Positions 1 through 25,667 of a stretch of 64,000 bases of DNA are shown here, piece after piece (positions within the stretch are counted from its first letter, which is position 1; each line of letters opens with the position of its first letter). The position numbers were made by a program, and so were the translations under genes. The notes under the pieces are model-generated. The model worked only from the letters and a program-made list of their open reading frames with translations. It was not told the DNA's origin and ran no database searches. Source of the DNA: Styela clava (taxonomy: Eukaryota; Chordata; Ascidiacea; Stolidobranchia; Styelidae); NCBI RefSeq assembly GCF_964204865.1, contig NC_135250.1, positions 7,812,001 to 7,876,000 on the forward strand. The letters are read 5' to 3'.

Positions 1-52
1 ACAATAACAAAATACACTTCGCCGGACGTGCCATTGCTTGTGGCATTTTATA
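1..52 (-). promoter_or_regulatory. Promoter for an array gene copy left of the window
   Basis: The same TATA-containing stretch that drives copies 1-4 is present at the very start of the window (TATA at 52-47, minus strand) with no exon 1 to its left inside the window. It implies that the array continues beyond the left edge. Confidence 0.45.
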
Positions 53-239
53 CTACTATATTTGTTTGCCGTTTAAAGTGATTTCCAGAATAAGTGTTAG
101 ATAAAATTAAAATAAAAAAAGCAGCTTTGCATCTCGTGAAACAGGATTGTTTTCGTGTACACCGTATCTGTGTGCGGGTCGCTGACGACGATTTCGCCAC
201 TCGTTTGCCTTGCTCATTACTGTATTAGCACGGTCCGCA

Positions 240-422
240 GCAATGAAGTCCAAACAGACTTCATAATGGCGCCAAGCAAAGTGATTAGTTCTTTTCTAAG
301 CGCCTCATAGTGTTGTGCTGGAAGCCTGCTCAGTAAATTGGTTTGCAGCTCAGGAATCGGTGGACACTTGGTTGTGTTATCATACGGACTTCAAACTGAG
401 GTTACATGGTTTAAAAAGATCG
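240..422 (+). other. Possible divergent leader exon with strong splice donor (unit 1)
   Basis: On the plus strand, facing away from the array-gene promoter, a stretch ends at 422 in GATCG followed by a consensus donor GTAAGT. It holds two very short ATG frames (at 242 and 265) and no long coding frame, so it would be a non-coding or leader exon. The donor is present in all five units (for example after 6283). No partner acceptor could be fixed. It could equally be chance. Confidence 0.25.
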
Positions 423-1334
423 GTAAGTTCTGAATTACGTCAGGTTTATTTGTGTTTGTTTTATGTTAATGCACTAATGTAGTATTGCGGTACAATACTT
501 TCATATGGAAGGGCTATTCGTACACTAATGAATTGTTGTGACCTAAGTGACAAAATTTCCGTCCTTCATTGGGACTGAGAATATTCTGCCAACCGTATTT
601 TCATGTAAAATTGACCTTCGCACTATTTATGCTTCCAAATAACAAAGCGTTCACACGATCCTCATTTGCTGCAAAGCTAGACAATGTATTTTACGCTACA
701 AGCATTTTTATTACTCAGTAAAATCACATATTTAAGCAAATTAAATGAGACGGTCAAAGAACAACACACCACCGTTGGCAGAAATATTCATGTACAGGAA
801 CGGCACTTCGATATCGAATAAGAAACACAGGGTGTAACAAAATGAAAATGATTAGGTGGTCTAATTATCGCGTTTTTAGACTTTAGTTTGGTTCTAATTT
901 CAATGTCCGAATCAAATTGGAATTATTTTGAGTTAAAACACGTCCAACTGTTAACTTAAGTCGGTTAAATTAACCCAATATGCTATGAGAGTGCAATGAT
1001 ATCTCAGTTTACAAACATCCATGTGCATGGTATCCACAGCCATAAATATAATGACAAATACACATATCACTGAACAAAATAAATTGAGTTTAGTCCCAGC
1101 GCAAAATGAATATAATCTGAGATAAGCAATTGACTTTTTGAAGATTCTTGTTAATAACAAATATTAAATCAATAACCTTGAACTTTGTTTCGGGTGTTTT
1201 TAATAAGATAGTTGTATATATGATGAAAGCGTGGTTTAATGTTAAAATGTTTTTGCCAATTTTTTTTGTCGATATATATATATATATATGTAGAAATATA
1301 TGAACTGGGATTTTGCCGTACACGTAAGAGACGG

Positions 1335-1360
1335 CCAAATTTCAAATGGAATGTGGAGAT
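1335..1360 (-). pseudogene. Relic of the sulfotransferase last exon inside each unit
   Basis: These 26 bp match 25642-25667, the last codons of the intact sulfotransferase (residues HIPFEI, then stop). In the full units the TGA stop reads TGG. The flanking bases to the left also match, since they are the gene's 3' flank, but to the right the unit continues into unrelated sequence. Equivalent relics lie near 7194, 13928 and 19797. Confidence 0.85.
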
Positions 1361-1700
1361 TCTAAATATTAATAGACATAAATTCCGCAAAAATAATACA
1401 CAAGAATTTACATATCGTCCTTATTATATATCAGCACATTTTAATTTGCTATATTTAAGAACCTAATTGTTGAAGCATTAATAAAATTGATAGCGTCTCA
1501 GCTAATGTAACACCCCTTTATCACAAACCAATTTAGCGAAAGCTTCGTTTCTAGAAGTTATATATGCGAGTTATATATGTCAAAAAATTAGTTGATGGAT
1601 AAATATATTCAAATAAAAAAAACTTGGTTAATATGTAAATGATATAAACTTTCCACCGCTAGTGCGCCCTGCTCAATGAAACGACAATACGCTTGTAAAC

Positions 1701-1886
1701 ATGGTCCAAAGAATCAACTCCTCATGCCGCAAGGTGTCTCGCGTAATTGCCCACATAAAAAATGTGAACTTTCTGGAAAGGCTGTCGTTCGACTATTGTT
1801 ATATTGGCTCGTCGAATTTTGCCTATTACAAGAAAGATACAGCTAATCTGAATCTTACAGTGAAGAAAGTATTTAGCCTGGTTTAA
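1701..1886 (+). CDS. Small conserved plus-strand frame, 61 codons (four copies)
   Basis: An ATG frame of 61 codons recurs at 7560-7745, 14293-14478 and 20163-20348 with only two amino-acid differences, both in unit 2. An AATAAA lies about 15 bp past the stop. The product would be basic with no signal peptide or known motif. Conservation says little, because the surrounding non-coding DNA is conserved to the same degree. I regard it as possible, not probable. Confidence 0.2.
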   Translation: MVQRINSSCRKVSRVIAHIKNVNFLERLSFDYCYIGSSNFAYYKKDTANLNLTVKKVFSLV

Positions 1887-4130
1887 TCAAATTGTCTAAT
1901 AAACCTGTAAAATTCTACGTCATGTTATTTGGTTTCAGTATTTGAATAATTTTTCTTCAAATCTTACTCTACTCAAAAAAAGGCATGAAGCAATTAGATA
2001 TTAATCGCGGCTGTTGGAATAGTTTACATGAAACTATTTGCCATTGAGTAACGCTTTATTAGTTTCGCAAGCTGGAAGCATGATCTTTTTGTCATTTTCA
2101 ATGTTTCCAAAATAAACTATACCCAACCTGAGTGGATTGCATGAACCAACGTAACAGACTATGGTATATATATACTTTTATTTACATTACATATATATTC
2201 ACTAAAATTCTTACACACAAACAAACACAAACACAATAAATGAACAAACTACCCCACCAATTTCTGATGTGTTAATATAAAACCTACAAATTGTTTGTTG
2301 CTGACTTAAAATACGTTGTTGAATAAAACAAAATAATTAAATATTTAAATTCAAATTGTAGCAAACAACAACAAATTGTAAACTACATCCATAATGCAAT
2401 CATAGTACGATATAATACATAAAGCAATTTCACATTTGCGAAATGGTTCAATAAAAACACTGCAATAAATGCAAGCAAATGAAGACTTAGTAGTATTACA
2501 ATCGTTCTTAGGAGCGATGGTGTTGTGGTTATGGCGTTGCACTGACTACGTTGGTATCGTATGGACATTCGACAGGCCACGTGAACGGGGGATCGCCAGG
2601 TAATCATACAACGTTCGGTGAGAATAACTTGCACCAATTTGAGGGATGAAAAACCCGCGTGTTGGTGTAACTCTTCGAAATTAGCCAAATTTGGAATAGA
2701 ACAATTGGCACTAATTAGGACAGTCCAAAAATAATTTGAAACCAAATCAAAGTAAAAGACTTTCAGAAAACAAAACTATTCTACTTTGAACTAAAGGGAT
2801 TGGTCTAACAATTGCAGAAAAGAAGCTGTTGTCAACAACATGAACAACATTACAGCAACACTACTGTCTGCGAGTTGTTTCTGTAAATAGTCAGATTTTC
2901 AGTATAAAAAATAAAAAAATCTCAAGGCTCAATTGGCCATACAGAAACATTTCACATCCAAGTAGGAACATTATCCAAACAAAGCATTTCCTTAACTAGT
3001 CAGGCTCGTCACAAGCCTCAAGGTGAAACCACCATGTCGTTGGAAACACTGTTGATTGAATGAATGTTATATGCTGGGTTTTGATATTTGAAAACAATTA
3101 TTAATGATGTTCTGTTGTTGCCTTAATTTTTGGTACAAAATAAATGAAAGATTGATGAATATCGCCTAAAAATTATGATAATTCATTCGGGAATTTTTGC
3201 GAAAATTGCTACAACACATTGTTTTTAACATACGCACCAATGTGAATCAATTGTTAAAATAAAGTACAATAATCGAATTTAAAAGATGACTGGACTTTTT
3301 ATAAATAAATTGACCATTATTAATTCTCAGATTGACGGTATTTCTTATGACCTAACTTTTGCTTTATCGGTGAGCTTGAACAACGGACTAGCCTTGGTTC
3401 GAGATCTTTAATACAAATGCGATACCAACATCTTATGCAAACGCACTAATCACTGAGTCATCGCGACCAAAGTTGCGACATTATTGACAGAGCATTCGGC
3501 TGCTTTCAAATTGGTAAACTTCGTAACATAGAATTATATATATATATGTGCCAAACAGGGTTAAGACTTTAAGGGTCTTTAGCTAGATGATAGATGCGTT
3601 TGCCACTACGTTAAAACAGAATTAGAATCATACCACTGTAAGTTGAGAGGTACATGTTGAGAGGTACATCCCCCAACAATTACTACTTATATGCATCTAG
3701 AATGAATACCCACCTAACCAGACCAGGTGTGGAGAATGGGCAAGCATTCGATTACCAGTGGGATAAATACAAAGTATAATCCTAATACTACCTATATAAA
3801 ATACTATCGACACAGAGTTTTAAGTTGAGCCGAGTTTATCTGTACAGGATTGGGTGCGCGATTTAGTTTGAATGGAAAATGAACATATTTTTCAATAATC
3901 AAATTCAACTAATTAACATGTATTGGAATTCCCTATAAAGATTTGTTTACATTATTAAATAATTTTACCAATTTCATTAAATTTACAATTACAACAATTT
4001 TAATTCTGGATGGCGCTTGGAATTGTGAATTCTGGTCAAGTATATGGGTTAAAATCAGCTTGCTTACAACTCTGTGCCCCTAAATAGTCACTCACGCTCG
4101 CACTCACTCAATTATAATTAAATTTTTCTG
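1887..4130. other. Unit interior with no supported gene
   Basis: About 2.2 kb, repeated in units 2-4. It contains a TA-rich tract near 2165, a 120-codon minus-strand open stretch (2383-2745) that begins with TTG and not ATG, a short TA run near 3537 and the 14-bp direct duplication at 3642-3669. I see no splice-consistent gene here. Confidence 0.5.
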
Positions 4131-5774
4131 TTAATGTTTGCGATGTAAACCCAAGCATCGCGCAAATGGGAATAACAAGCATTTCAGAAACTTGCTTGCT
4201 TTCTTCCCCTTTGCTTTCTGTTGAGGATGAACACGTCGGTGGTTACGTCTTGTGTTGATTGGCTCGTTCTCCATTTTCATGGGTTTCAGTTTTGCCTCCA
4301 TTGCTTCCTCTGTTCTTGCTCTCTCAAGGCTGTAAAGAATCATGTATATGTGTCAGTTGGAACTCTGAAACAGGACTTTACTTGATCGTAAATTGAACCA
4401 CTTGTGCGTATATATGACTAGCCACTTGGCCAAAAGAACTTACACGCTGCTCTAGTCAATTATTATGTCGTGACTCTATTAAGTGTTACCAGTACTGGCG
4501 TTTAAATTTACCCGTTAGTAAAAGCAGACGGGACATACGACTTTCTTATTATACATAACTCTTGATTCTACGTCGTTAAAAAACGTCGTTAATTAGAAAT
4601 AAATAAACACAAGTTAGTAATCACCATTCGTCAATGAGTTCGTCAACCATCACGTTGAGAATTTCCGCTACGTTGCTGCAATATTCATACGATAAAAATA
4701 TTTCTTCCGGATAATTCGGTATGGGTAGGGCGACTGCTTGTGGTTTAGGATCATGAACCGATTTTTGATCAGACAATCCAAGAATGTCGTCCTCCAGTTG
4801 CAGGCTTTCCAAAGATCCTTTTTAAACAAAATATGTTCAATATAGGGCACGAAACTTGAACTTCCCAACGGTTATTTCCATTCACAAACATTAACATTTT
4901 CGTTAAAATGTAGTTCCAGACGAGCCCTCAGCACCCTGGCTACAAATATGTAGGGCCGACCAGTCGGCTTTAATCTATAAATACGAGTATAGTTCATCCC
5001 TTTTTTTTGTTCCTATACTACGACTCAATATTGTTTCACATTTCACTCTGCTTACTCAAACTTACTTAAATTCGGATAGCTGCGTGTTTCCATTATCGGA
5101 ACAATTGCCTGATCTTGCGTCATCACGATAGGTTCGCTAACCATTTTCTCCATAATTTTCTGATATTCGACATGCTTCGTTTCGAACAAACCTGGGAATT
5201 TATAACTAGTTTTTTAACATCTATATTTTAAAATTCCATTACATATTTTAAAAATATATACTTACTCAAGATGCAAGGTGAACTTTGAGTGCTCAGCCAG
5301 CATTCCTGCTTCGGTTTTTGAATGATTGATGGATTGAGATAGTACTCGCTTCTCCACTTTTTGGTTGTCGTTAGTGGTGAGATCTATGTATATTAAATAA
5401 AATTGTACCATGGACATTTTAAATAGTAGTGATACAAATATCATGCCCAAAATGAAGCGAAAATTCAGAAAGATGATATGTATTAGTAGATTCGGTGCAC
5501 TAATAGAGAAGAGGTTTGTTAACGTTTACGCTATCTTAACTTCACCCTAAATGACTCTTTTCTACAAAAAAGTAGTCAGCTGATGTACAAGATTAATGAT
5601 AGGTTCATAATCTTTTGTGAGAAAGTCTCCTATAGTTTTTTGTAGAAAAAAAAATCGACACAGTTATCGCATACCGCAGGCATGTGCATACTGGCATTTA
5701 AATTTCAATTATTTGCTTACCATCATATCCCCAGAAGCTTTCATAATATTCATTCTCGACTGCATAATTGTCAT
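4131..5774 (-). CDS. Array gene copy 1, five exons, unknown protein (229 aa)
   Basis: I do not recognise this protein. Exons on the minus strand are 5774-5721, 5383-5266, 5191-5066, 4817-4625 and 4329-4131. All have AG/GT borders, and their phases (0, 1, 1, 2) join into one frame from an ATG to a TAA. The N-terminal part is Met-rich. The middle (exons 3-4) is acidic, with stretches such as EYQKIMEKMV and LQLEDDILGL, and ends with a helix-like AEILNVMVDELIDE. Exon 5 is strongly basic (RRNHRRVHPQQKAKGKK) and closes with a short Cys and hydrophobic segment followed by LGLHRKH. There is no signal peptide or clear membrane span. The exon 4 acceptor has a poor pyrimidine tract and is the weakest junction. 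The same structure is repeated in units 3 and 4. A TATA box lies about 135 bp upstream of the ATG. Confidence 0.6.
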
Positions 5775-5854
5775 CTAGTTGTTCACGCGGTGAAAACTGT
5801 GCAATTGATATTTTCTCAAAATATAAATCAATTTTAATAAAATTGTTACATTTA

Positions 5855-5913
5855 TGACGTCACAATAACAAAATACACTTCGCCGGACGTGCCATTGCTT
5901 GTGGCATTTTATA
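5855..5913 (-). promoter_or_regulatory. Promoter of array gene copy 1: TATA box and CRE-like palindrome
   Basis: Read on the minus strand, TATAAA lies at 5913-5908, so initiation is expected near 5880. The perfect palindrome TGACGTCA (a CREB/ATF-type site) lies at 5862-5855, just inside the expected leader. The ATG follows at 5774, with only one minimal upstream ATG-stop in between. The same TATA box occurs at 47-52, 11721-11726, 18502-18507 and 24372-24377. The CRE palindrome is kept at the joints of units 1/2, 2/3 and 3/4 and lost at unit 4/5. Confidence 0.5.
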
Positions 5914-8900
5914 CTACTATATTTGTTTGCCGTTTAAAGTGATTTCCAGAATAAGTGTTAGATAAAATTAAAATAAAAAAAGCAGCTTTCCATCTCATGA
6001 AACAGGATTGTTTTCGTGTACACCGTATCTGTGTGCGGGTCGCTGACGACGATTTCGCCACTCGTTTGCCTTGCTCATAACTGTATTAGCACGGTCCGCA
6101 GCAATGAAGTCCAAACAGACTTCATAACGGCGCCAAGCAAAGTGATTAGTTCTTTTCTAAGTGCCTCATAGTGTTGTGCTGGAAGCCTGCTCAGTAAATT
6201 GGTTTGCAGCTCAGGAATCGGTGGACACTTGGTTGTGTTATCATACGGACTTCAAACTGAGGTTACATGGTTTAAAAAGATCGGTAAGTTCTGAATTACG
6301 TCAGGTTTATTTGTGTTTGTTTTATGTTAATGCACTAATGTAGTATTGCGGTACAATACTTTCATATGGAAGGGCTATTCGTACACTAATGAATTGTTGT
6401 GACATAAGTGACAGAATTTCCGTCCTTCATTGGGACTGAGAATATTCTGCCAACCGTATTTTCATGTAATATTGACCTTCGCACTATTTATGCTTCCAAA
6501 TAACAAAGCGTTCACACGATCCTCATTTGCTGCAAAGCTAGACAATGTATTTTACGCTACAAGCATTTTTATTACTCAGTAAAATCACATATTTAAGCAA
6601 ATTAAATGAGACGGTCAAAGAACAACACACCACAGTTGGCAGAAATATTCATGTACAGGAACGGCACTTCGATATCGAATAAGAAACACAGGGTGTAACA
6701 AAATGAAAATGATTAGGTGGTCTAATTATCGCGTTTTTAGACTTTAGTTTGGTTCTAATTTCAATGTCCGAATCAAATTGGAATTATTTTGAGTTAAAAC
6801 ACGTCCAACTGTTAACTTAAGTTGGTTAAATTAACCCAATATGCTATGAGAGTACAATGATATCTCAGTTTACAAACATCCATGTGCATGGTATCGACAG
6901 CCATAAATATAATGACAAATACACATATATATCACTGAACAAAATAATTTGAATTTAGTCCCAGCGCAAAATGAATATAATCTGAGATAAGCAATTGACT
7001 TTTTGAAGATTCTTGTTAATAACAAATATTAAATCAATAACCTTGAACTTTGTTTCGGATGTTTTTAATAAGATAGTTGTATATATGATGAAAGCGTGGT
7101 TTAATGTTAAAATGTTTTTGCTAATTTTTTTTGTCGATATATATATATGTAGAAATATATGAACTGGGATTTTGCCGTACACGTAAGAGACGGCCAAATT
7201 TCAAATGGAATGTGGAGATTCTAAATATTAATAGACATAAATTCCGCAAAAATAATACACAAGAATTTACATATCGTCCTTATTATATATCAGCACATAT
7301 TAATTTGCTATATTTAAGAACCTAATTGTTGAAGCATTAATAAAATTGATAGCGTCTCAGCTAATTTAACACCCCTTTATCACAAACCAATTTAGCGAAA
7401 GCTTCGTTTCTAGAAGTTATATATGCGAGTTATATAAGTCAAAAAATTAGTTGATGGATAAATATATTCAAATAAAAAAAACTTGGTTAATATGTAAATG
7501 ATATAAACTTTCCACGGCTAGTGCGCCCTGCTCAATGAAACGACAATACGCTTGTAAACATGGTCCAAAGAATCAACTCCTCATGCCGCAAGGTGTCTCG
7601 CGTAATTGCCCACATAAAAAATGTGAACTTCCTGGAAAGGCTGTCGTTCGACTATTGTTATATTGGCTCGTCGAATTTTGCCTATTACAAAAAAAATACA
7701 GCTAATCTGAATCTTACAGTGAATAAAGTATTTAGCCTGGTTTAATCAAATTGTCTAATAAACCTGTAAAATTCTACGTCTTGTTATTTGGTTTCAGTAT
7801 TTGAATAATTTTTCTTCAAATCTTACTCTACTCAAAAAAAGGCATGAAGCAATTAGATATTAATCGCGGCTGTTGGAATAGTTTACATGAAACTATTTGC
7901 CATTGAGTAACGCTTTATTAGTTTTCGCAAGCGGGAAGCATGATCTTTTTGTCATTTTCAATGTTTCCAAAATAAACTATACCCAACCTGAGTGGATTGC
8001 ATGAACCAACGTAACAGACTATGGTATATATATACTTTTATTTACATTACATATATATTCACTAAAATTCTTACACACAAACAAACACAAACACAATAAA
8101 TGAACAAACTACCCCACCAATTTCTGATGTGTTAATATAAAACCTACAAATTGTTTGTTGCTGACTTAAAATACGTTGTTGAATAAAACAAAATAATTAA
8201 ATATTTAAATTCAAATTGTAGCAAACAACAACAAATTGTAAACTACATCCATAATGCAATCATAGTACGATATAATACATAAAGCAATTTCACATTTGCG
8301 AAATGGTTCAATAAAAACACTGCAATAAATGCAAGCAAATGAAGTCTTAGTAGTATTACAATCGTTCTTAGGAGCGATGGTGTTGTGGTTATGGCGTTGC
8401 ACTGACTACGTTGGTATCGTATGGACATTCGACAGGCCACGTGAACGGGGGATCGCCAGGTAATCATACAACGTTCGGTGAGAATAACTTGCACCAATTT
8501 GAGGGATGAAAAACCCGCGTGTTGGTTTAACTCTTCGAAATTAGCCAAATTTGGAATAGAACAATTGGCACTAATTAGGACAGTCCAAAAATAATTTGAA
8601 ACCAAATCAAAGTAAAAGACTTTCAGAAAACAAAACTATTCTACTTTGAACTAAAGGGATTGGTCTAACAATTGCAGAAAAGAAGCTGTTGTCAACAACA
8701 TGAACAACATTACAGCCACACTACTGTCTGCGAGTTGTTTCTGTAAATAGTCAGATTTTCAGTATAAAAAATAAAAAAATCTCAAGGCTCAATTGGCCAT
8801 ACAGAAATATTTCACATCCAAGTAGGAACATTATCCAAACAAAGCATTTCCTTAACTAGTCAGGCTCGTCACAAGCCTCAAGGTGAAACCACCATGTCGT

Positions 8901-11674
8901 TGGAAACACTGTTGATTGAATGAATGTTATATGCTGGGTTTTGATATTTGAAAACAATTATTAATGATGTTCTGTTGTTGCCTTAATTTTTGGTACAAAA
9001 TAAATGAAAGATTGATGAATATCGCCTAAAAATTATGATAATTCATTCGGGAATTTTTGCGAAAATTGCTACAACACATTGTTTTTAACATACGCACCAA
9101 TGTGAATCAATTGTTAAAATAAAGTACAATAATCGAATTTAAAAGATGACTGGACTTTTATAAATAAATTAACCATTAATAATTCTCAGATTGACGGTAT
9201 TTCTTATGACCTAACTTTTGCTTTATCGGTGAGCTTGAACAACGGACTAGCCTTGGTTCGAGATCTTTAATACAAATGCGATACCAACATCTTATGCAAA
9301 CGCACTAATCACTGAGTCATCGCGACCAAAGTTGCGACATTATTGACAGAGCATTCGGCTGCTTTCAAATTGGTAAACTTCGTAACATAGAACTATATAT
9401 ATATATGTGCCAAACAGGGTTAAGACTTTAAGGGTCTTTAGCTAGATGATAGATGCGTTTGCCACTACGTTAAAACAGAATTAGAATCATACCACTGTAA
9501 GTTGAGAGGTACATCCCCCAACAATTACTACTTATATGCATCTAGAATGAATACCCACCTAACCAGACCAGGTGTGGAGAATGGGCAAGCATTCGATTAC
9601 CAGTGGGATAAATACAAAGTTTAATCCTAATACTACCTATATAAAATACTATCGACACAGAGTTGTAAGTTGAGCCGAGTTTATCTGTACAGGATTGGGT
9701 GCGCGATTTAGTTTGAATGGAAAATGAACATATTTTTCAATTATCAAATTCAACTAATTAACATGTATTGGAATTCCCTATAAAGATTTGTTTACATTAT
9801 TAAATAATTTTACCAATCTCATTAAATTTACAATTACAACAATTTTAATTCTGGATGGCGCTTGGAATTGTGAATTCTGGTCAAGTATATGGGTTGAAAT
9901 CAGCTTGCTTACAACTCTGTGCCCCTAAATAGTCACTCACGCTCGCACTCACTCAATTATAATTAAATTTTTCTGTTAATGTTTGCGATGTAAACCCAAG
10001 CATCGCGCAAATGGGAATAACAAGCATTTCAGAAACTTGCTTGCTTTCTTCCCCTTTGCTTTCTGTTGAGGATGAACACGTCGGTGGTTACGTCTTGTGT
10101 TGATTGGCTCGTTCTCCATTTTCATGGGTTTCAGTTTTGCCTCCATTGCTTCCTCTGTTCTTGCTCTCTCAAGGCTGTAAAGAATCATGTATATGTGTCA
10201 GTTGGAACTCTGAAACAGGACTTTACTTGATCGTAAATTGAACCACTTGTGCGTATATATGACTAGCCACTTGGCCAAAAGAACTTACACGCTGCTCTAG
10301 TCAATTATTATGTCGTGACTCTATTAAGTGTTACCAGTACTGGCGTTTAAATTTACCCGTTAGTAAAAGCAGACGGGACATACGACTTTCTTATTATACA
10401 TAACTCTTGATTCTACGTCGTTAAAAAACGTCGTTAATTAGAAATAAATAAACACAAGTTAGTAATCACCATTCGCCAATGAGTTCGTCAACCATCACGT
10501 TGAGAATTTCCGCTACGTTGCTGCAATATTCATACGATAAAAATATTTCTTCCGGATAATTCGGTATGGGTAGGGCGACTGCTTGTGGTTTAGGATCATG
10601 AACCGATTTTTGATCAGACAATCCAAGAATGTCGTCCTCCAGTTGCAGGCTTTCATAGGGCACGAAACTTGAACTTCCCAACGGTTATTTCCATTCACAA
10701 ACATTAACATTTTCGTTAAAATGTAGTTCCAGACGAGCCCTCAGCACCCTGGCTACAAATATGTAGGGCCGACCAGTCGGCTTTAATCTATAAATACGAG
10801 TATAGGTCATCCCTTTTTTTTGTTCCTATACTACGACTCAATATTGTTTCACATTTCACTCTGCTTACTCAAACTTACTTAAATTCGGATAGCTGCGTGT
10901 TTCCATTATCGGAACAATTGCCTGATCTTGCGTCATCACGATAGGTTCGCTAACCATTTTCTCCATAATTTTCTGATATTCGACATGCTTCGTTTCGAAC
11001 AAACCTGGGAATTTATAACTAATTTTTTAACATCTATATTTTAAAATTCCATTACATATTTTAAAAATATATACTTACTCAAGATGCAAGGTGAACTTTG
11101 AGTGCTCAGCCAGCATTCCTGCTTCGGTTTTTGAATGATTGATGGATTGAGATAGTACTCGCTTCTCCACTTTTTGGTTGTCGTTAGTGGTGAGATCTAT
11201 GTATATTAAATAAAATTGTACCATGGACATTTTGAATAGTAGTGATACAAATATCATGCCCAAAATGAAGCGAAAATTCAGAAAGATGATATGTATTAGT
11301 AGATTCGGTGCACTAATAGAGAAGAGGTTTGTTAACGTTTACGCTATCTTAACTTCACCCTAAATGACTCTTTTCTACAAAAAAGTAGTCAGCTGATGTA
11401 CAAGATTAATGATAGGTTCATAATCTTTTGTGAGAAAGTCTCCCATATTTTTTTGTAGAAAAAAAAAGCGACACAGTTATCGCATACCGCAGGCATGTGC
11501 ATACTGGCATTTAAATTTCAATTAATTGCTTACCATCATATCCCCAGAAGCTTTCATAATATTCATTCTCGACTGCATAATTGTCATCTAGTTGTTCACG
11601 CGGTGAAAACTGTGCAATTGATATTTTCTCAAAATATAAATCAATTTTAATACAATTGTTACGTTTATGACGTC
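5862..11674. repeat. Tandem array, unit 2 (5,813 bp)
   Basis: Same order of parts as unit 1. It is shorter by two visible deletions. One removes one copy of the 14-bp repeat that is doubled in the other full units (near 9500-9520). The other removes 32 bp at about 10652 and takes out the exon 4 acceptor of the unit's minus-strand gene. The TA microsatellite near 7140 is shorter than in units 1 and 4. Scattered single-base differences are mostly outside exons. Confidence 0.97.
9976..11587 (-). pseudogene. Array gene copy 2, exon 4 acceptor deleted
   Basis: Exons 1 (11587-11534), 2 (11196-11079), 3 (11004-10879) and 5 (10174-9976) match copy 1. A 32-bp deletion at about 10652 removes the AG acceptor of exon 4 and its first eight bases. 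The AG dinucleotides left nearby enter exon 4 in the wrong phase, so by my model this copy cannot make the full protein unless it skips or re-splices the exon. Skipping exon 4 (phase 1 in, phase 2 out) would also shift the frame. Exon 4 otherwise stays open, with one Asp to Gly change near its end. It may be a recent pseudogene or an alternatively spliced copy. Confidence 0.5.
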
Positions 11675-12405
11675 ACAAAAACAAAATACACTTCGCCGGA
11701 CGTGCCATTGCTTGTGGCATTTTATACTACTATATTTGTTTGCCGTTTAAAGTGATTTCCAGAATAAGTGTTAGATAAAATTAAAATAAAAAAAGCAGCT
11801 TTCCATCTCATGAAACAGGATTGTTTTCGTGTACACCGTATCTATGTGCGGGTCGCTGACGACGATTTCGCCACTCGTTTGCCTTGCTCATAACTGTATT
11901 AGCACGGTCCGCAGCAATGAAGTCCAAACAGACTTCATAATGGCGCCAAGCAAAGTGATTAGTTCTTTTCTAAGCGCCTCATAGTGTTGTGCTGGAAGCC
12001 TGCTCAGTAAATTGGTTTGCAGCTCAGGAATTGGTGGACACTTGGTTGTGTTATCATACGGACTTCAAACTGAGGTTACATGGTTTAAAAAGATCGGTAA
12101 GTTCTGAATTACGTCAGGTTTATTTGTGTTTGTTTTATGTTAATGCACTAATGTAGTATTGCGGTACAATACTTTCATATGGAAGGGCTATTCGTACACT
12201 AATGAATTGTTGTGACCTAAGTGACAGAATTTCCGTCCTTCATTGGGACTGAGAATATTTTGCCAACCGTATTTTCATGTAAAATTGACCTTCGCACTAT
12301 TTATGCTTCCAAATAACAAAGCGTTCACACGATCCTCATTTGCTGCAAAGCTAGACAATGTATTTTACGCTACAAGCATTTTTATTACTCAGTAAAATCA
12401 CATAT

Positions 12406-13329
12406 TTAACCCTCCCACAGCCGGTAAGCCCATATGGGCTTTTCAGCGCTATTAAGGCTAGCTCATGGTAACCTACTGTTACTATCGCTCTTAGCTGTTT
12501 ATTGACGTAATGCCCTGGTATGAGAGAAGCGATAGAACCTTCCAGCCGTGACGCAAAGTGCGAATCGTATAAATAGCGTGGATTTCAAAATTGCCTGTCA
12601 GACGTCTGAAAATGTCGACTCAGCTCAGACAGGAAATACTCCTTTATAACGACTTATTATTGTTTTAGCATGTATTTTCAGTCATACTAACTATCCCTGA
12701 CCATCCCTGGCGCTGTGTTGTTTTGATAAATATGATTTCGACTGCTCCATAGTTGGCAGAGGTATGGAGATTTTTTGTATGTAAAAAAAACGTAAAATTA
12801 ATGGTAATTTTACCGCGTAAATGTGCGTATGGGATTGTTTACGTCGTTCTACGCGCATTTCCGTCGAAAAAATTTAATTTTTTTGCATTGGGGGTGGTCT
12901 GTGCAGTAATAATAAGAGCTGTGACGTCATCAATATCGGTAATTTGACCTTGAACTTGACAATACTGTAAATACAATTGTGAATTTCAGAGTAATAACCA
13001 TTTATGCTATAATAGTCGTTTTGGTATTGTTATGTTAGGAAAAACTTGACGAAAACGTTGGAGAAAAAATTAATTAATTAGGAATTAATTATTAACCCTC
13101 TACTGTACACAGAATATTTCAAAGTTCAATTTTTTTTTAGAAATTTTTGAAATTTTTTTGCAAAAATTTTTTTTCGATGAGTGTGTTTTAAAGATATATT
13201 GCTGAATAGAACTCTAGCAGACGCTTTCAAAAAGCCATGAGTTAAGATTTAGGGCTTAATGGTTGACAAAAAAAATAAGTTTAAAAATACCCATAAAATG
13301 GTCAGGGATTTGAGCTGTCCGAAGGTTAA
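12406..13329. mobile_element. TTAA-flanked insertion, piggyBac-like non-autonomous element
   Basis: A 916-bp insertion (12410-13325) is bounded by the duplicated target TTAA (12406-12409 and 13326-13329). The empty site is present in units 1, 2, 4 and 5, so the boundaries are exact. Left end CCCTCCCACAGCC and the reverse of the right end CCTTCGGACAGCTC are weakly similar. TTAA duplication with C-rich ends is the hallmark of the piggyBac group. No transposase frame is present; the longest open stretch is about 64 codons. A 14-bp palindrome lies at 12427-12440. A second TTAACCCTC at 13092 in the same orientation hints at a composite of two related elements. Confidence 0.8.
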
Positions 13330-16300
13330 GCAAATTAAATGAGACGGTCAAAGAACAACACACCACAGTTGGCAGAAATATTCATGTACAGGAACGGCAC
13401 TTCGATATCGAATAAGAAACACAGGATGTAACAAAATGAAAATGATTAGGTGGTCTAATTATCGCGTTTTTAGACTTTAGTTTGGTTCTAATTTCAATGT
13501 CCGAATCAAATTGGAATTATTTTGAGTTAAAACACGTCCAACTGTTAACTTAAGTTGGTTAAATTAACCCAATATGCTATGAGAGTACAATGATATCTCA
13601 GTTTACAAACATCCACGTGCATGGTATCCACAGCCATAAATATAATGACAAATACACATATCACTGAACAAAATAAATTGAATTTAGTCCCAGCGCAAAA
13701 TGAATATAATCTGAGATAAGCAATTGACTTTTTGAAGATTCTTGTTAATAACAAATATTAAATCAATAACCTTGAACTTTGTTTCGGATGTTTTTAATAA
13801 GATAGTTAATTGTATATATGATGAAAGCGTGGTTTAATGTTAAAATGTTTTTGCTAATTTTTTTTGTCGATATATATATATGTAGAAATATATGAACTGG
13901 GATTTTGCCGTACACGTAAGAGACGGCCAAATTTCAAATGGAATGTGGAGATTCTAAATATTAATAGACATAAATTCCGCAAAAATAATACACAAGAATT
14001 TACATATCGTCCTTATTATATATCAGCACATTTTAATTTGCTATATTTAAGAACCTAATTGTTGAAGCATTAATAAAATTGATAGCGTCTCAGCTAATTT
14101 AACACCCCTTTATCACAAACCAATTTAGCGAAAGCTTCGTTTCTAGAAGTTATATATGCGAGTTATATATGTCAAAAAATTAGTTGATGGATAAATATAT
14201 TCAAATAAAAAAAACTTGGTTAATATGTAAATGATATAAACTTTCCACCGCTAGTGCGCCCTGCTCAATGAAACGACAATACGCTTGTAAACATGGTCCA
14301 AAGAATCAACTCCTCATGCCGCAAGGTGTCTCGCGTAATTGCCCACATAAAAAATGTGAACTTCCTGGAAAGGCTGTCGTTCGACTATTGTTATATTGGC
14401 TCGTCGAATTTTGCCTATTACAAGAAAGATACAGCTAATCTGAATCTTACAGTGAAGAAAGTATTTAGCCTGGTTTAATCAAATTGTCTAATAAACCTGT
14501 AAAATTCTACGTCTTGTTATTTGGTTTCAGTATTTGAATAATTTTTCTTCAAATCTTACTCTACTCAAAAAAAGGCATGAAGCAATTAGATATTAATCGC
14601 GGCTGTTGGAATAGTTTACATGAAACTATTTGCCATTGAGTAACGCTTTATTAGTTTTCGCAAGCTGGAAGCATGATCTTTTTGTCATTTTCAATGTTTC
14701 CAAAATAAACTATACCCAACCTGAGTGGATTGCATGAACCAACGTAACAGACTATGGTATATATATACTTTTATTTACATTACATATATATTCACTAAAA
14801 TTCTTACACACAAACAAACACAAACACAATAAATGAACAAACTACCCCACTAATTTCTGATGTGTTAATATAAAACCTACAAATTGTTTGTTGCTGACTT
14901 AAAATACGTTGTTGAATAAAACAAAATAATTAAATATTTAAATTCAAATTGTAGCAAACAACAACAAATTGTAAACTACATCCATAATGCAATCATAGTA
15001 CGATATAATACATAAAGCAATTTCACATTTGCGAAATGGTTCAATAAAAACACTGCAATAAATGCAAGCAAATGAAGACTTAGTAGTATTACAATCGTTC
15101 TTAGGAGCGATGGTGTTGTGGTTATGGCGTTGCACTGACTACGTTGGTATCGTATGGACATTCGACAGGCCACGTGAACGGGGGATCGCCAGGTAATCAT
15201 ACAACGTTCGGTGAGAATAACTTGCACCAATTTGAGGGATGAAAAACCCGCGTGTTGGTGTAACTCTTCGAAATTAGCCAAATTTGGAATAGAACAATTG
15301 GCACTAATTAGGACAGTCCAAAAATAATTTGAAACCAAATCAAAGTAAAAGACTTTCAGAAAACAAAACTATTCTACTTTGAACTAAAGGGATTGGTCTA
15401 ACAATTGCAGAAAAGAAGCTGTTGTCAACAACATGAACAACATTACAGCAACACTACTGTCTGCGAGTTGTTTCTGTAAATAGTCAGATTTTCAGTATAA
15501 AAATAAAAAAATCTCAAGGCTCAATTGGCCATACAGAAACATTTCACATCCAAGTAGGAACATTATCCAAACAAAGCATTTCCTTAACTAGTCAGGCTCG
15601 TCACAAGCCTCAAGGTGAAACCACCATGTCGTTGGAAACACTGTTGATTGAATGAATGTTATATGCTGGGTTTTGATATTTGAAAACAATTATTAATGAT
15701 GTTCTGTTGTTGCCTTAATTTTTGGTACAAAATAAATGAAAGATTGATGAATATCGCCTAAAAATTATGATAATTCATTCGGGAATTTTTGCGAAAATTG
15801 CTACAACACATTGTTTTTAACATACGCACCAATGTGAATCAATTGTTAAAATAAAGTACAATAATCGAATTTAAAAGATGACTGAACTTTTTATAAATAA
15901 ATTAACCATTAATAATTCTCAGATTGACGGTATTTCTTATGACCTAACTTTTGCTTTATCGGTGAGCTTGAACAACGGACTAGCCTTGGTTCGAGATCTT
16001 TAATACAAATGCGATACCAACATCTTATGCAAACGCACTAATCACTGAGTCATCGCGACCAAAGTTGCGACATTATTGACAGAGCATTCGGCTGCTTTCA
16101 AATTGGTAAACTTCGTAACATAGAACTATATATATATATATGTGCCAAACAGGGTTAAGACTTTAAGGGTCTTTAGCTAGATGATAGATGCGTTTGCCAC
16201 TATGTTAAAACAGAATTAGAATCATACCACTGTAAGTTGAGAGGTACATGTTGAGAGGTACATCCCCCAACAATTACTACTTATATGCATCTAGAATGAA

Positions 16301-16724
16301 TACCCACCTAACCAGACCAGGTGTGGAGAATGGGCAAGCATTCGATTACCAGTGGGATAAATACAAAGTATAATCCTAATACTACCTATATAAAATACTA
16401 TCGACACAGAGTTGTAAGTTGAGCCGAGTTTATCTGTACAGGATTGGGTGCGCGATTTAGTTTGAATGGAAAATGAACATATTTTTCAATTATCAAATTC
16501 AACTAATTAACATGTATTGGAATTCCCTATAAAGATTTGTTTACATTATTAAATCATTTTACCAATCTCATTAAATTTACAATTACAACAATTTTAATTC
16601 TGGATGGCGCTTGGAATTGTGAATTCTGGTCAAGTATATGGGTTAAAATCAGCTTGCTTACAACTCTGTGCCCCTAAATAGTCACTCACGCTCCCACTCA
16701 CTCAATTATAATTAAATTTTTCTG

Positions 16725-18368
16725 TTAATGTTTGCGATGTAAACCCAAGCATCGCGCAAATGGGAATAACAAGCATTTCAGAAACTTGCTTGCTTTCTTC
16801 CCCTTTGCTTTCTGTTGAGGATGAACACGTCGGTGGTTACGTCTTGTGTTGATTGGCTCGTTCTCCATTTTCATGGGTTTCAGTTTTGCCTCCATTGCTT
16901 CCTCTGTTCTTGCTCTCTCAAGGCTGTAAAGAATCATGTATATGTGTCAGTTGGAACTCTGAAACAGGACTTTACTTGATCGTAAATTGAACCACTTGTG
17001 CGTATATATGACTAGCCACTTGGCCAAAAGAACTTACACGCTGCTCTAGTCAATTATTATGTCGTGACTCTATTAAGTGTTACCAGTACTGGCGTTTAAA
17101 TTTACCCGTTAGTAAAAGCAGACGGGACATACGACTTTCTTATTATACATAACTCTTGATTCTACGTCGTTAAAAAACGTCGTTAATTAGAAATAAATAA
17201 ACACAAGTTAGTAATCACCATTCGTCAATGAGTTCGTCAACCATCACGTTGAGAATTTCCGCTACGTTGCTGCAATATTCATACGATAAAAATATTTCTT
17301 CCGGATAATTCGGTATGGGTAGGGCGACTGCTTGTGGTTTAGGATCATGAACCGATTTTTGATCAGACAATCCAAGAATGTCGTCCTCCAGTTGCAGGCT
17401 TTCCAAAGATCCTTTTTAAACAAAATATGTTCAATATAGGGCACGAAACTTGAACTTCCCAACGGTTATTTCCATTCACAAACATTAACATTTTCGTTAA
17501 AATGTAGTTCCAGACGAGCCCTCAGCACCCTGGCTACAAATATGTAGGGCCGACCAGTCGGCTTTAATCTATAAATACGAGTATAGGTCATCCCTTTTTT
17601 TTGTTCCTATACTACGACTCAATATTGTTTCACATTTCACTCTGCTTACTCAAACTTACTTAAATTCGGATAGCTGCGTGTTTCCATTATCGGAACAATT
17701 GCCTGATCTTGCGTCATCACGATAGGTTCGCTAACCATTTTCTCCATAATTTTCTGATATTCGACATGCTTCGTTTCGAACAAACCTGGGAATTTATAAC
17801 TAATTTTTTAACATCTATATTTTAAAATTCCATTACATATTTTAAAAATATATACTTACTCACGATGCAAGGTGAACTTTGAGTGCTCAGCCAGCATTCC
17901 TGCTTCGGTTTTTGAATGATTGATGGATTGAGATAGTACTCGCTTCTCCACTTTTTGGTTGTCGTTAGTGGTGAGATCTATGTATATTAAATAAAATTGT
18001 ACCATGGACATTTTAAATAGTAGTGATACAAATATCATGCCCAAAATGAAGCGAAAATTCAGAAAGATGATATGTATTAGTAGATTCGGTGCACTAATAG
18101 AGAAGAGGTTTGTTAACGATTACGCTATCTTAACTTCACCCTAAATGACTCTTTTCTACAAAAAAGTAGTCAGCTGATGTACAAGATTAATGATAGGTTC
18201 ATAATCTTTTGTGAGAAAGTCTCCCATAGTTTTTTGTAGAAAAAAAAATCGACACAGTTATCGCATACCGCAGGCATGTGCATACTGGCATTTAAATTTC
18301 AATTAATTGCTTACCATCATATCCCCAGAAGCTTTCATAATATTCATTCTCGACTGCATAATTGTCAT
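16725..18368 (-). CDS. Array gene copy 3, five exons, unknown protein
   Basis: Same structure as copy 1: exons 18368-18315, 17977-17860, 17785-17660, 17411-17219 and 16923-16725, with all splice sites kept. The one coding difference I noted is in exon 2 near its donor (Leu to Val in the joined frame, Leu to Arg in the other open frame of that exon). Exons 4 and 5 appear unchanged at the protein level. The promoter is in unit 4 (TATA at 18502-18507, reverse strand). Confidence 0.6.
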
Positions 18369-18455
18369 CTAGTTGTTCACGCGGTGAAAACTGTGCAATT
18401 GATATTTTCTCAAAATATAAATCAATTTTAATAAAATTGTTACATTTATGACGTC

Positions 18456-21400
18456 ACAATAACAAAATACACTTCGCCGGACGTGCCATTGCTTGTGGCA
18501 TTTTATACTACTATATTTGTTTGCCGTTTGAAGTGATTTCCAGAATAAGTGTTAGATAAAATTAAAATAAAGAAAGCAGCTTTCCATCTCATGAAACAGG
18601 ATTGTTTTCGTGTACACCGTATCTGTGTGCGGGTCGCTGACGACGATTTCGCCACTCGTTTGCCTTGCTCATAACTGTATTAGCACGGTCCGCAGCAATG
18701 AAGTCCAAACAGACTTCATAATGGCGCCAAGCAAAGTGATTAGTTCTTTTCTAAGCGCCTCATAGTGTTGTGCTGGAAGCCTGCTCAGAAAATTGGTTTG
18801 CAGCTCAGGAATCGGTGGACACTTGGTTGTGTTATCATACGGACTTCAAACTGAGGTTACATGGTTTAAAAAGATCGGTAAGTTCTGAATTACGTCAGGT
18901 TTATTTGTGTTTGTTTTATGTTAATGCACTAATGTAGTATTGCGGTACAATACTTTCATATGGAAGGGCTATTCGTACACTAATGAATTGTTGTGACATA
19001 AGTGACAGAATTTCCGTCCTTCGTTGGGACTGAGAATATTCTGCCAACCGTATTTTCATGTAAAATTGACCTTCGCACTATTTATGCTTCCAAATAACAA
19101 AGCGTTCACACGATCCTCATTTGCTGCAAAGCTAGACAATGTATTTTACGCTACAAGCATTTTTATTACTCAGTAAAATCACATATTTAAGCAAATTAAA
19201 TGAGACGGTCAAAGAACAACACACCACAGTTGGCAAAAATATTCATGTACAGGAACGGCACTTCGATATCGAATAAGAAACACAGGGTGTAACAAAATGA
19301 AAATGATTAGGTGGTCTAATTATCGCGTTTTTAGACTTTAGTTTGGTTCTAATTTCAATGTCCGAATCAAATTGGAATTATTTTGAGTTAAAACACGTCC
19401 AACTGTTAACTTAAGTTGGTTAAATTAACCCAATATGCTATGAGAGTACAATGATATCTCAGTTTACAAACATCCATGTGCATGGTATCCACAGCCATAA
19501 ATATAATGACAAATACACATATAACTGAACAAAATAAATTGAATTTAGTCCCAGCGCAAAATGAATATAATCTGAGATAAGCAATTGACTTTTTGAAGAT
19601 TCTTGTTAATAACAAATATTAAATCAATAACCTTGAACTTTGTTTCGGATGTTTTTAATAAGACAGTTGTATATATGATGAAAGCGTGGTTTAATGTTAA
19701 AATGTTTTTGCTAATTTTTTTTGTCGATATATATATATATATATATATATATGTAGAAATATATGAACTGGGATTTTGCCGTACACGTAAGAGACGGCCA
19801 AATTTCAAATGGAATGTGGAGATTCTAAATATTAATAGACATAAATTCCGCAAAAATAATACACAAGAATTTACATATCGTCCTTATTATATATCAGCAC
19901 ATTTTAATTTGCTATATTTAAGAACCTAATTGTTGAAGCATTAATAAAATTGATAGCGTCTCAGCTAATTTAACACCCCTTTATCACAAACCAATTTAGC
20001 GAAAGCTTCGTTTCTAGAAGTTATATATGCGAGTTATATATGTCAAAAAATTAGTTGATGGATAAATATATTCAAATAAAAAAAACTTGGTTAATATGTA
20101 AATGATATAAACTTTCCACCGCTAGTGCGCCCTTCTCAAGAAACGACAATACGCTTGTAAACATGGTCCAAAGAATCAACTCCTCATGCCGCAAGGTGTC
20201 TCGCGTAATTGCCCACATAAAAAATGTGAACTTCCTGGAAAGGCTGTCGTTCGACTATTGTTATATTGGCTCGTCGAATTTTGCCTATTACAAGAAAGAT
20301 ACAGCTAATCTGAATCTTACAGTGAAGAAAGTATTTAGCCTGGTTTAATCAAATTGTCTAATAAACCTGTAAAATTCTACGTCTTGTTATTTGGTTTCAG
20401 TATTTGAATAATTTTTCTTCAAATCTTACTCTACTCAAAAAAAGGCATGAAGCAATTAGATATTAATCGCGGCTGTTGGAATAGTTTACATGAAACTATT
20501 TGCCATTGAGTAACGCTTTATTAGTTTTCGCAAGCGGGAAGCATGATCTTTTTGTCATTTTCAATGTTTCCAAAATAAACTATACCCAACCTGAGTGGAT
20601 TGCATGAACCAACGTAATGAACTATGGTATATATATACTTTTATTTACATTACATATATATTCACTAAAATTCTTACACACAAACAAACACAAACACAAT
20701 AAATGAACAAACTACCCCACCAATTTCTGATGTGTTAATATAAAACCTACAAATTGTTTGTTGCTGACTTGAAATACGTTGTTGAATAAAACAAAATAAT
20801 TAAATATTTAAATTCAAATTGTAGCAAACAACAACAAATTGTAAACTACATCCATAATGCAATCATAGTACGATATAATACATAAAGCAATTTCACATTT
20901 GCGAAATGGTTCAATAAAAACACTGCAATAAATGCAAGCAAATGAAGACTTAGTAGTATTACAATCGTTCTTAGGAGCGATGGTGTTGTGGTTATGGCGT
21001 TGCACTGACTACGTTGGTATCGTATGGACATTCGACAGGCCACGTGAACGGGGGATCGCCAGGTAATCATACAACGTTCGGTGAGAATAACTTGCACCAA
21101 TTTGAGGGATGAAAAACCCGCGTGTTGGTGTAACTCTTCGAAATTAGCCAAATTTGGAATAGAACAATTGGCACTAATTAGGACAGTCCAAAAATAATTT
21201 GAAACCAAATCAAAGTAAAAGACTTTCAGAAAACAAAACTATTCTACTTTGAACTAAAGGGATTGGTCTAACAATTGCAGAAAAGAAGCTGTTGTCAACA
21301 ACATGAACAACATTACAGCAACACTACTGTCTGCGAGTTGTTTCTGTAAATAGTCAGATTTTCAGTATAAAAAATAAAAAAATCTCAAGGCTCAATTGGC

Positions 21401-24325
21401 CATACAGAAACATTTCACATCCAAGTAGGAACATTATCCAAACAAAGCATTTCCTTAACTAGTCAGGCTCGTCACAAGCCTCAAGGTGAAACCACCATGT
21501 CGTTGGAAACACTGTTGATTGAATGAATGTTATATGCTGGGTTTTGATATTTGAAAACAATTATTAATGATGTTCTGTTGTTGCCTTAATTTTTGGTACA
21601 AAATAAATGAAAGATTGATGAATATCGCCTAAAAATTATGATAATTCATTCGGGAATTTTTGCGAAAATTGCTACAACACATTGTTTTTAACATACGCAC
21701 CAATGTGAATCAATTGTTAAAATAAAGTACAATAATCGAATTTAAAAGATGACTGGACTTTTTATAAATAAATTAACCATTAATAATTCTCAGATTGACG
21801 GTATTTCTTATGACCTAACTTTTGCTTTATCGGTGAGCTTGAACAACGGACTAGCCTTGGTTCGAGATCTTTAATACAAATGCGATACCAACATCTTATG
21901 CAAACGCACTAATCACTGAGTCATCGCGACCAAAGTTGCGACATTATTGACAGAGCATTCGGCTGCTTTCAAATTGGTAAACTTCGTAACATAGAACTAT
22001 ATATATATATGTGCCAAACGGGGTTAAGACTTTAAGGGTCTTTAGCTAGATGATAGATGCGTTTGCCACTACGTTAAAACAGAATTAGAATCATACCACT
22101 GTAAGTTGAGAGGTACATGTTGAGAGGTACATCCCCCAACAATTACTACTTATATGCATCTAGAATGAATACCCACCTAACCAGACCAGGTGTGGAGAAT
22201 GGGCAAGCATTCAATTACCAGTGGGATAAATACAAAGTATAATCCTAATACTACCTATATAAAATACTATCGACACAGAGTTGTAAGTTGAGCCGAGTTT
22301 ATCTGTACAGGATTGGGTGCGCGATTTAGTTTGAATGGAAAATGAACATATTTTTAATAATCAAATTCAACTAATTAACATGTATTGGAATTCCCTATAA
22401 AGATTTGTTTACATTATTAAATAATTTTACCAATCTCATTAAATTTACAATTACAACAATTTTAATTCTGGATGGCGCTTGGAATTGTGAATTCTGGTCA
22501 AGTATATGGGTTAAAATCAGCTTGCTTACAACTCTGTGCCCCTAAATAGTCACTCACGCTCGCACTCACTCAATTATAATTAAATTTTTCTGTTAATGTT
22601 TGCGATGTAAACCCAAGCATCGCGCAAATGGGAATAACAAGCATTTCAGAAACTTGCTTGCTTTCTCCCCCTTAGCTTTCTGTTGAGGAGGAACACGTCG
22701 GTGGTTACGTCTTGTGTTGATTGGCTCGTTCTCCATTTTCATGGGTTTCAGTTTTGCCTCCATTGCTTCCTCTGTTCTTGCTCTCTCAAGGCTGTAAAGA
22801 ATCATGTATATGTGTCAGTTGGAACTCTGAAACAGGACTTTACTTGATCGTAAATTGAACCACTTGTGCGTATATATGACTAGCCACTTGGCCAAAAGAA
22901 CTTACACGCTGCTCTAGTCAATTATTATGTCGTGACTCTATTAAGTGTTACCAGTACTGGCGTTTAAATTTACCCGTTAGTAAAAGCAGACGGGACATAC
23001 GACTTTCTTATTATACATAACTCTTGATTCTACGTCGTTAAAAAACGTCGTTAATTAGAAATAAATAAACACAAGTTAGTAATCACCATTCGTCAATGAG
23101 TTCGTCAACCATCGCGTTGAGAATTTCCGCTACGTTGCTGCAATATTCATACGATAAAAATATTTCTTCCGGATAATTCGGTATGGGTAGGGCGACTGCT
23201 TGTGGTTTAGGATCATGAACCGATTTTTGATCAGACAATCCAAGAATGTCGTCCTCCAGTTGCAGGCTTTCCAAAGATCCTTTTTAAACAAAATATTTTC
23301 AATATAGGGCACGAAACTTGAACTTCCCAACGGTTATTTCCATTCACAAACATTAACATTTTCGTTAAAATGTAGTTCCAGACGAGCCCTCAGCACCCTG
23401 GCTACAAATATGCAGGGCCGACAGGTCGGCTTTAATCTATAAATACGAGTATAGGTCATCACATTTTTTTGTTCCTATACTACGACTCAATATTGTTTCA
23501 CATTTCACTCTGCTTACTCAAACTTACTTAAATTCGGATAGCTGCGTGTTTCCATTATCGGAACAATTGCCTGATCTTGCGTCATCACGATAGGTTCGCT
23601 AGCCATTTTCTCCATAATTTTCTGATATTCGACATGCTTCGTTTCGAACAAACCTGGGAATTTATAACTAATTTTTTAACATCTATATTTTAAAATTCCA
23701 TTACATATTTTAAAAATATATACTTACTCAAGATGCAAGGTGAACTTTGAGTGCTCAGCCAGCATTCCTGCTTCGGTTTTTGAATGATTGATGGATTGAG
23801 ATAGTACTCGCTTCTCCACTTTTTGGTTGTCGTTAGTGGTGAGATCTATGTAAATTAAAAAAAATTGTACCATGGACATTTTAAATAGTAGTGATACAAA
23901 TATCATGCCCAGAATGAAGCGAAAATTCAGAAAGATGATATGTATTAGTATATTCGGTGCACTAATAGCGAAGAGGTTTGTTAACGTTTACGCTATCTTA
24001 ACTTCACCCTAAATAACTCTTTTCTACAAAAAAGTAGTCAGCTGATGTACAAGATTAATGATAGGTTCATAATCTTTTGTGAGAAAGTCTCCCATATTCT
24101 TTTGTAGAAAAAAAAAAATCGACACAGTTATCGCATACCGCAGGCATGTGCATACTGGCATTTAAATTTCAATTAATTGCTTACCATCATATCCCCAGAA
24201 GCTTTCATAATATTCATTCTCGACTGCATAATTGTCATCTAGTTGTTCACGCGGTGAAAACTGTGCAATTGATATTTTCTCAAAATATAAATCAATTTTA
24301 ATGAAATTGTTACGTTTATGATCTC
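18456..24325. repeat. Tandem array, unit 4 (5,870 bp)
   Basis: Same order of parts as unit 1. The TA microsatellite (about 19727-19753) is the longest of the set, which by chance opens longer reading frames on both strands there. Coding differences from unit 1 include two changes in exon 5 of the unit gene (His to Pro and Lys to Glu in the basic stretch) and Val to Ala in exons 3 and 4. Confidence 0.97.
22593..24238 (-). CDS. Array gene copy 4, five exons, unknown protein
   Basis: Same structure as copy 1: exons 24238-24185, 23845-23728, 23653-23528, 23279-23087 and 22791-22593. Splice sites are intact. It carries more amino-acid changes than the other copies, including Val to Ala in exon 3 and in exon 4, and two changes in the basic exon 5. 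Its promoter lies in the truncated unit 5, where the CRE-like palindrome found at the other unit joints is lost. Confidence 0.58.
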
Positions 24326-25667
24326 ACAATAACAAAATACACTTCGCCAGACGTGCAATTGCTTGTGGCATTTTATACTACTATATTTGTTTGCCGTTTA
24401 AAGTGATTTCCAGAATAAGTGTTAGATAAAATTAAAATAAAAAAAGCAGCTTTCCATCTCATGAAACAGGATTGTTTTCGTGTACACCGTATCTGTGTGC
24501 GGGTCGCTGACGACGATTTTGCCACTCGTTTGCCTTGCTCATCACTGTATTAGCACGGACCGCAACAACGAAGTCCAAACAGACTTCATAATGGCGCCAA
24601 GCAAAGTGATTAGTTCTTTTCTAAGCGCCTCATAGTGTTGTGCTGGAAGCCTGCTTAGTAAATTGGTTTGCAGCTCAGAAATCGGTGGACACTTGGTTGT
24701 GTTATCATACGGACTTCAAACTGAGGTTACATGGTTTAAAAAGATCGGTAAGTTCTGAATTACGTCAGGTTTATTTGTGTTTGTTTTATGTCAATGCACT
24801 AATGTAGTATTGCGGTACAATACTTTCATATGGAAGGGCTATTCGTACACTAATGAATTGTTGTGACCTAAGTGACAGAATTTCCGTACTTCATTGGGAC
24901 TGAGAATATTCTGCCAACCGTATTTTCATGTAAAATTGACCTTCGCACTATTTATGCTTTCAAATAACAAAGCGTTCACACGGTCCTCATTTGCTGCAAA
25001 GCTAGACAATGTTTTTTACGCTCCAAGCATTTTTATTACTCAGTAAAATCACATATTTAAGCAAATTAAATGAGACGGTCAAAGAACAACACACCACAGT
25101 TGGCAGAAATATTCATGTACAGGAACGGCACTTCGATATCGAATAAGAAACACAGGGTGTAACAAAATTAAAATGATTAGGTGGTCTAATTATCGCGTTT
25201 TTAGACTTTAGTTTGGTTCTAATTTCAATGTCCGAATCAAATTGGAATTATTTTGAGTTAAAATACGTCCAACTGTTAACTTAAGTTGGTTAAATTAACC
25301 CAATATGCTATGAGAGTACAATGATATCTCAGTTTACAAACACAGTATCCACAGCCATAAATATAATGACAAATACACATATCACTGAACAAAATAAATT
25401 GAATTTAGTCCCAGCGCAAAATGAATATAATCTGAGATAAGCAATTGACCTTTTGAAGATTCTTGTAAATAACAAATACTAAATCAATAACCTTGAACGT
25501 TGTATCGGATGTTTTTAATAAGATAGTTGTATATATAATGAAAGCGTGGTTTGATGTTAAAATGTTTTTGCTAAATTTTTTGTTGATATGTATATATGTA
25601 AAATATATGATCCGGTATCTTGCCGTACACGTAAGAGACGGTCAAATTTCAAATGGAATGTGGAGAT
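24326..25667. repeat. Tandem array, unit 5, truncated at the sulfotransferase gene
   Basis: Matches the first 1,360 bp of unit 1 and then stops. The last shared bases are the eight ending at 25667; beyond that the sequence is the body of the sulfotransferase last exon, while in units 1-4 it continues into unrelated unit sequence. This partial unit is visibly more diverged than the full ones (for example a short deletion near 25340 and a changed TA tract), as expected for the edge of an array that is homogenised mainly in its interior. It supplies the promoter of gene copy 4. Confidence 0.93.

Follow-up and report, generated by a model that had tools for sequence, protein, structure and literature searches.

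A 64,000-nt window of the Styela clava genome (NCBI RefSeq assembly GCF_964204865.1, contig NC_135250.1, positions 7,812,001 to 7,876,000 of the forward strand) begins with a tandem array that is likely to carry a genuine spliced gene of no catalogued family and to have been shaped by one duplication, subsequent multiplication and homogenisation. Direct repeats run over positions 1-25667, and 1361-25667 comprises four head-to-tail units of 5.84-6.73 kb that differ pairwise by 0.55-1.43% when all four are aligned, in agreement with the tandem amplification described in an earlier note on this DNA (Table 1). The 4-unit alignment, from which a 916-bp insert of unit 2 was left out, contains 118 substituted and 93 gap columns among its 5886 columns. 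The left edge of the window cuts the array, because the sequence preceding unit 1 is a fifth 5' flank.

Table 1. Positions of the array units, gene copies and candidate promoter in the window.
Feature	Position	Strand	Details
Fifth 5' flank, from a further gene copy with exons left of the window	1..1360	-	98.7-98.8% identity with the copy 1-3 flanks
Array unit 1 (gene between its 3' and 5' flanks)	1361..7219		
Array unit 2	7220..13952		Carries the TTAA-flanked insert
Array unit 3	13953..19823		
Array unit 4	19824..25667		Right end is the array's right end, within the last sulfotransferase exon
Gene copy 1, intact	4131..5774	-	229 codons; exons 5774-5721, 5383-5266, 5191-5066, 4817-4625, 4329-4131
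Gene copy 2, damaged	9976..11587	-	32-bp deletion at 10654/10655
Gene copy 3, intact	16725..18368	-	One residue change against copy 1, L57V
Gene copy 4, intact, edge copy	22593..24238	-	V75A, V155A, H198P, K206E and a synonymous change relative to copy 1
Candidate core promoter of copy 1	5855..5913	-	TATAAAA 5913-5907 and TGACGTCA 5862-5855

In copies 1, 3 and 4, five minus-strand exons of 54, 118, 126, 193 and 199 nt join in phase into one frame of 690 nt, that is, 229 codons and a stop, and GT/AG borders are present at all four junctions in these three of the four copies, as had been proposed from the letters alone. The deletion in copy 2 takes out 24 bp of intron 3, including the acceptor AG, and 8 bp of exon 4. 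We scored these regions with a gene finder based on dynamic programming, which combined splice matrices with codon scores trained on 616 codons from neighbouring genes. It returned exactly the five-exon model for copies 1, 3 and 4, with scores of 30.7, 31.2 and 33.0, respectively, and wider regions of about 3.9 kb around the same copies yielded no further exon. For copy 2 it gave a shortened path via other sites with a score of 26.5, so that this copy may not simply be dead.

Dinucleotide shuffling of the copy 1 region, repeated 2000 times, gave a maximum score of 24.3 (16.8 in an earlier set of 200). As a further control, 132 tiles of 1900 bp were taken at 475-bp steps from both strands of 27801-60575. 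Two of them reached at least 30.7, both on a C-type lectin gene that is partly in the training set, and the next tiles scored 29.0 (53451-55350, minus strand) and 26.9, at places without an assigned gene that may or may not be genes. The latter tiles indicate that real sequence outscores shuffles, so the shuffles represent a mild control. The gene finder also recovered the sulfotransferase gene beside the array, another member of the training set, joining its four exons with a score of 61.6. When alternative codon scores were used, built from amino-acid frequencies in place of the window's genes and with the background still derived from the window, the choice of five exons was unchanged, with the start at the second ATG and a score of 32.4 (maximum of 500 shuffles, 24.6). 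Each exon of copy 1 has its highest codon score in the joined frame, out of three sense and three antisense frames; a second frame is open in exons 1 and 2 and scores nearly as well (4.0 versus 3.3 and 2.7 versus 1.3, joined versus second), and we rejected it as it runs into a stop when its sequence is read on into exon 3. Exon 5 as a whole has a codon score of -1.0. We consider it very unlikely that the exons are not a gene at all and instead represent open stretches strung together by chance within repeated non-coding DNA, or the remains of a transposon. Such a reading would fit the lack of a homologue or Pfam match, the neutral-like coding changes discussed below and the score of 29.0 at one tile without an assigned gene, but no shuffle out of 2000 and no tile off the lectin gene attained the score of copy 1, and a transposase domain was absent from the scanned frames of the unit.

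Several splice sites of the model are weak: the donor of intron 4 is GTGATT, and two acceptors score just 0.28 and 0.15. When intron 4 is left unspliced, the frame ends right behind exon 4. A rival reading is a four-exon gene, the protein of which would end at ..LIDEW and lack the basic tail, with 'exon 5' being 3' untranslated sequence. In favour of this reading, which we regard as unlikely, the in-frame stop lies right at the supposed donor, and the longest run without any difference in all four copies, 402 bp at 4229-4630 of copy 1, spans the last 6 bases of exon 4, the whole of intron 4 (zero differences across 295 bp) and half of exon 5. However, an absence of substitutions is likewise seen in 2.9% of all 295-bp stretches of the unit, and the model scores 30.7 with exon 5 versus 23.0 without it. 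In addition, the joined frame is the sole open one among the three sense frames of exon 5. Structure prediction, for which exons 4 and 5 were folded separately and without relatives, was unsure for exon 4 outside a helix spanning residues 43-63 of that exon (pLDDT 93-94 in the core blocks) and gave helices of moderate confidence for exon 5 at residues 2-13 (block pLDDT 74) and 46-51, with a mean pLDDT of 68.8. A single amphipathic helix may thus cross the exon 4/5 border at about residues 143-177, extending into exon 5, and this mildly favours the exon 4/5 splice.

The predicted product has a calculated mass of 26.6 kDa and a pI of 8.45. Its net charge is -12 over residues 101-180 and +12 over residues 181-229, values reached by 42 and 56 of 5000 shuffled proteins, respectively (about 1% each, for stretch lengths that were picked after the charges were seen), which bears out the acidic middle and basic C-terminal tail remarked on earlier. 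At the cut-off applied, none of the 19-residue windows had the hydrophobicity of a membrane span. In the tail, basic residues are clustered and two cysteines lie beside hydrophobic residues, and we would guess that such a tail directs the protein into the nucleus or onto a membrane face. A speculative and rather improbable description of the product is that of an adaptor, mostly unstructured, with a long amphipathic helix and a basic, cysteine-bearing tail for one of these destinations. We also compared the protein with the RII-binding amphipathic helix pattern of A-kinase anchoring proteins and rejected this candidate: the best window has 1 mismatch, and 1858 of 2000 shuffled proteins did equally well or better.

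Searches of Pfam-A and NCBIfam gave 0 families for the product at E up to 10, a setting at which the filters discard most weak matches, and the single match among PDB sequences (E = 0.65) is at chance level, consistent with the statement in the earlier note that the gene belongs to no recognised family. The remainder of the window (25668-64000) held no diverged relatives of the gene (best tblastn E 1.2), and the last 171 of the 229 residues, used as query, found no relatives in prokaryote and viral contigs. None of the literature matches listed described the five-exon gene, which is no proof of absence. In lacking matches in domain libraries and solved structures, the gene resembles lineage-restricted (orphan) genes (PMC7028367).

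The borders of the units point to how the array may have arisen. Its right end, 25667, falls within the last exon of the sulfotransferase gene, the stop codon of which ends at 25642. All 4 internal junctions are identical over the 60 and 40 bases that flank them and retain the 26-base end of this exon, with TGG in place of the stop codon. The identity of the junctions suggests a single duplication that was later multiplied. In the history we propose, the five-exon gene sits just downstream of the sulfotransferase gene on the same strand, and a segment reaching from within the last sulfotransferase exon to about 2.8 kb past the gene would have been duplicated once, joining the break in that exon to sequence downstream of the five-exon gene. 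The resulting unit would then have multiplied head to tail through unequal crossing-over or conversion. Head-to-tail copies, a shared junction and an intact frame in three of the four copies characterise the array as a tandem multicopy protein gene.

Differences between the copies are distributed unevenly. The 5' flanks of copies 1-3 and the fifth flank differ by 0.89-1.32% among themselves, and the flank of copy 4 differs from them by 2.91-3.20%. Copy 4 alone differs in 61 of the 118 substituted columns, and these concentrate near the array edge (no equally extreme case in 20000 permutations, p about 5e-5), with no edge crowding of the remaining 57 (permutation p = 0.17). This pattern would result from homogenisation by unequal exchange or conversion with the border unit escaping; the inner copies would have been homogenised while the edge copy beside the sulfotransferase gene drifted. 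Homogenised inner units next to a divergent edge unit are what concerted evolution would produce. Edge units tend to diverge in homogenised tandem arrays, and the Styela clava array is like rDNA-type arrays in that its edge unit is the most divergent. It further shares low internal divergence and one junction sequence with arrays under concerted evolution such as rDNA, but differs from them in that few units are in view and the unit is one protein gene (PMC10462631).

With respect to selection, the copies show seven coding differences. Six of these are nonsynonymous, of which copy 4 carries four and copies 2 (damaged) and 3 one each, and one is synonymous; with transitions weighted, the opportunity is 3.3 to 1, and the kinds of change therefore lend the protein reading no support. 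The proposal that the amplification reflects selection for dose or for variants thus found no backing, as the ratio is neutral-like. Equal rates of synonymous and nonsynonymous change over many units had been named in the earlier note as refuting its reading; 6:1 versus 3.3:1 comes close to this, with just four units compared. The position of the changes was analysed by three comparisons, with uncorrected p values and with a half boundary chosen after viewing the distribution of changes: in the 5' half (4818-7219), the more variable of the two, changes hit 2 of the 298 columns of exons 1-3 and 77 of 2104 outside exons (Fisher p = 0.003); in the 3' half, the counts are 5 of 392 for exons 4-5 and 34 of 3065 around them (p = 0.80); and within the gene span, 7 of 690 exon columns vary versus 20 of 954 intron columns (p = 0.11).

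These data bear on whether the array is a neutral segmental duplication that unequal exchange spread without any benefit and whose copies are drifting to loss. We see this as a real possibility, if not the expected one, and it is compatible with a functional gene. Damage in one of the four copies and the 6:1 ratio are in line with neutrality, but the entire frame is kept in the other three copies, and exons 1-3 are less variable than the adjoining sequence. The array might raise the dose of one protein, with each intact copy transcribed on its own; we put this forward tentatively. We are more doubtful about the combined proposal of an undescribed family in one animal lineage that is being amplified for dose, with nearly uniform intact inner copies (one residue differs between copies 1 and 3) and an edge copy diversifying at four residues.

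Each unit carries its own upstream flank, and each intact copy is therefore probably transcribed on its own. The earlier note spoke of a gene with its own promoter, for which the flanks offer a suggestion: copies 1-4 each have TATAAAA 139 bp before the ATG, with another at the matching position in the fifth flank, although the minus strand of the window contains this word 27 times. The CRE TGACGTCA is found near the putative start in copies 1-3, which accounts for 3 of its 7 occurrences in the window, and is altered in copy 4.

Tandem multicopy genes have been described in another ascidian. The Ciona robusta assembly paper includes Zic-r.b, Efna and Prdm1-r among such genes, and its authors state that the reason for the multiple copies is not known to them (PMC6836712). 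The Styela clava array is like these in that copies of a protein gene are repeated in tandem, and it belongs with the known ascidian tandem multicopy genes; in contrast to the named developmental genes of the Ciona set (transcription factors, ephrins; PMC6836712), its product is without a recognised family. If expressed, the gene would be a test case for why single genes persist as near-identical tandem copies, a question that the Ciona genome paper leaves open (PMC6836712). The gene has no known relatives, and its array shows a single duplication breakpoint and, at the edge, a copy that would have escaped homogenisation.

The units contain further sequences of interest. The alignment gap in unit 2 corresponds to the 916-bp insert at 12410..13325, which lies between TTAA copies (12406-12409 and 13326-13329) and has imperfect terminal inverted repeats as judged by eye; its appearance suggests a piggyBac-like non-autonomous element. 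A 130-codon open stretch at 2386-2775 on the minus strand recurs in the 3' flanks of units 2-4 and has no Pfam match. Its plus strand was considered as a tRNA-derived repeat, and this was dropped after ARAGORN and Rfam gave nothing. ARAGORN found no tRNA, and Rfam no known non-coding RNA, either in the whole window at gathering scores or in one unit at E up to 1. On the plus strand of the 3' flank, the gene finder reached 19.7, above the 200 gene-region shuffles (maximum 16.8); we rejected the product as a gene, its sole Pfam match having E = 0.37, below the Pfam cut-off. In the 5' flank, a 46-codon coding-like stretch at 6001-6138 (minus strand), with equivalents in the other units, is perhaps a gene remnant. 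It was rejected as an upstream coding exon: its codon score is 9.3, yet it has no Pfam match, is variable among the copies and is skipped by the gene finder.

Outside the array, the four exons of the upstream sulfotransferase gene occupy 25642-27668 on the minus strand, with the array breakpoint in the last of them. The enzyme is of the cytosolic type: Pfam PF00685 was detected in 3 of the 4 exon stretches scanned, and SULT1C2 and estrogen sulfotransferase are among the PDB relatives of the last exon. A C-type lectin gene (PF00059) lies at about 45000-46460 on the plus strand and has four exons according to the gene finder. A codon-biased stretch at 53981-54247 (minus strand), for which the gene finder gives a four-exon model scoring 29.0, is possibly a further unrecognised gene. 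At 60938-63383 on the plus strand, a SWIB-domain gene (PF02201) presumably encodes a SMARCD-type chromatin subunit. This gene content points to an animal genome. A T-rich low-complexity tract is located at 34497-34689.
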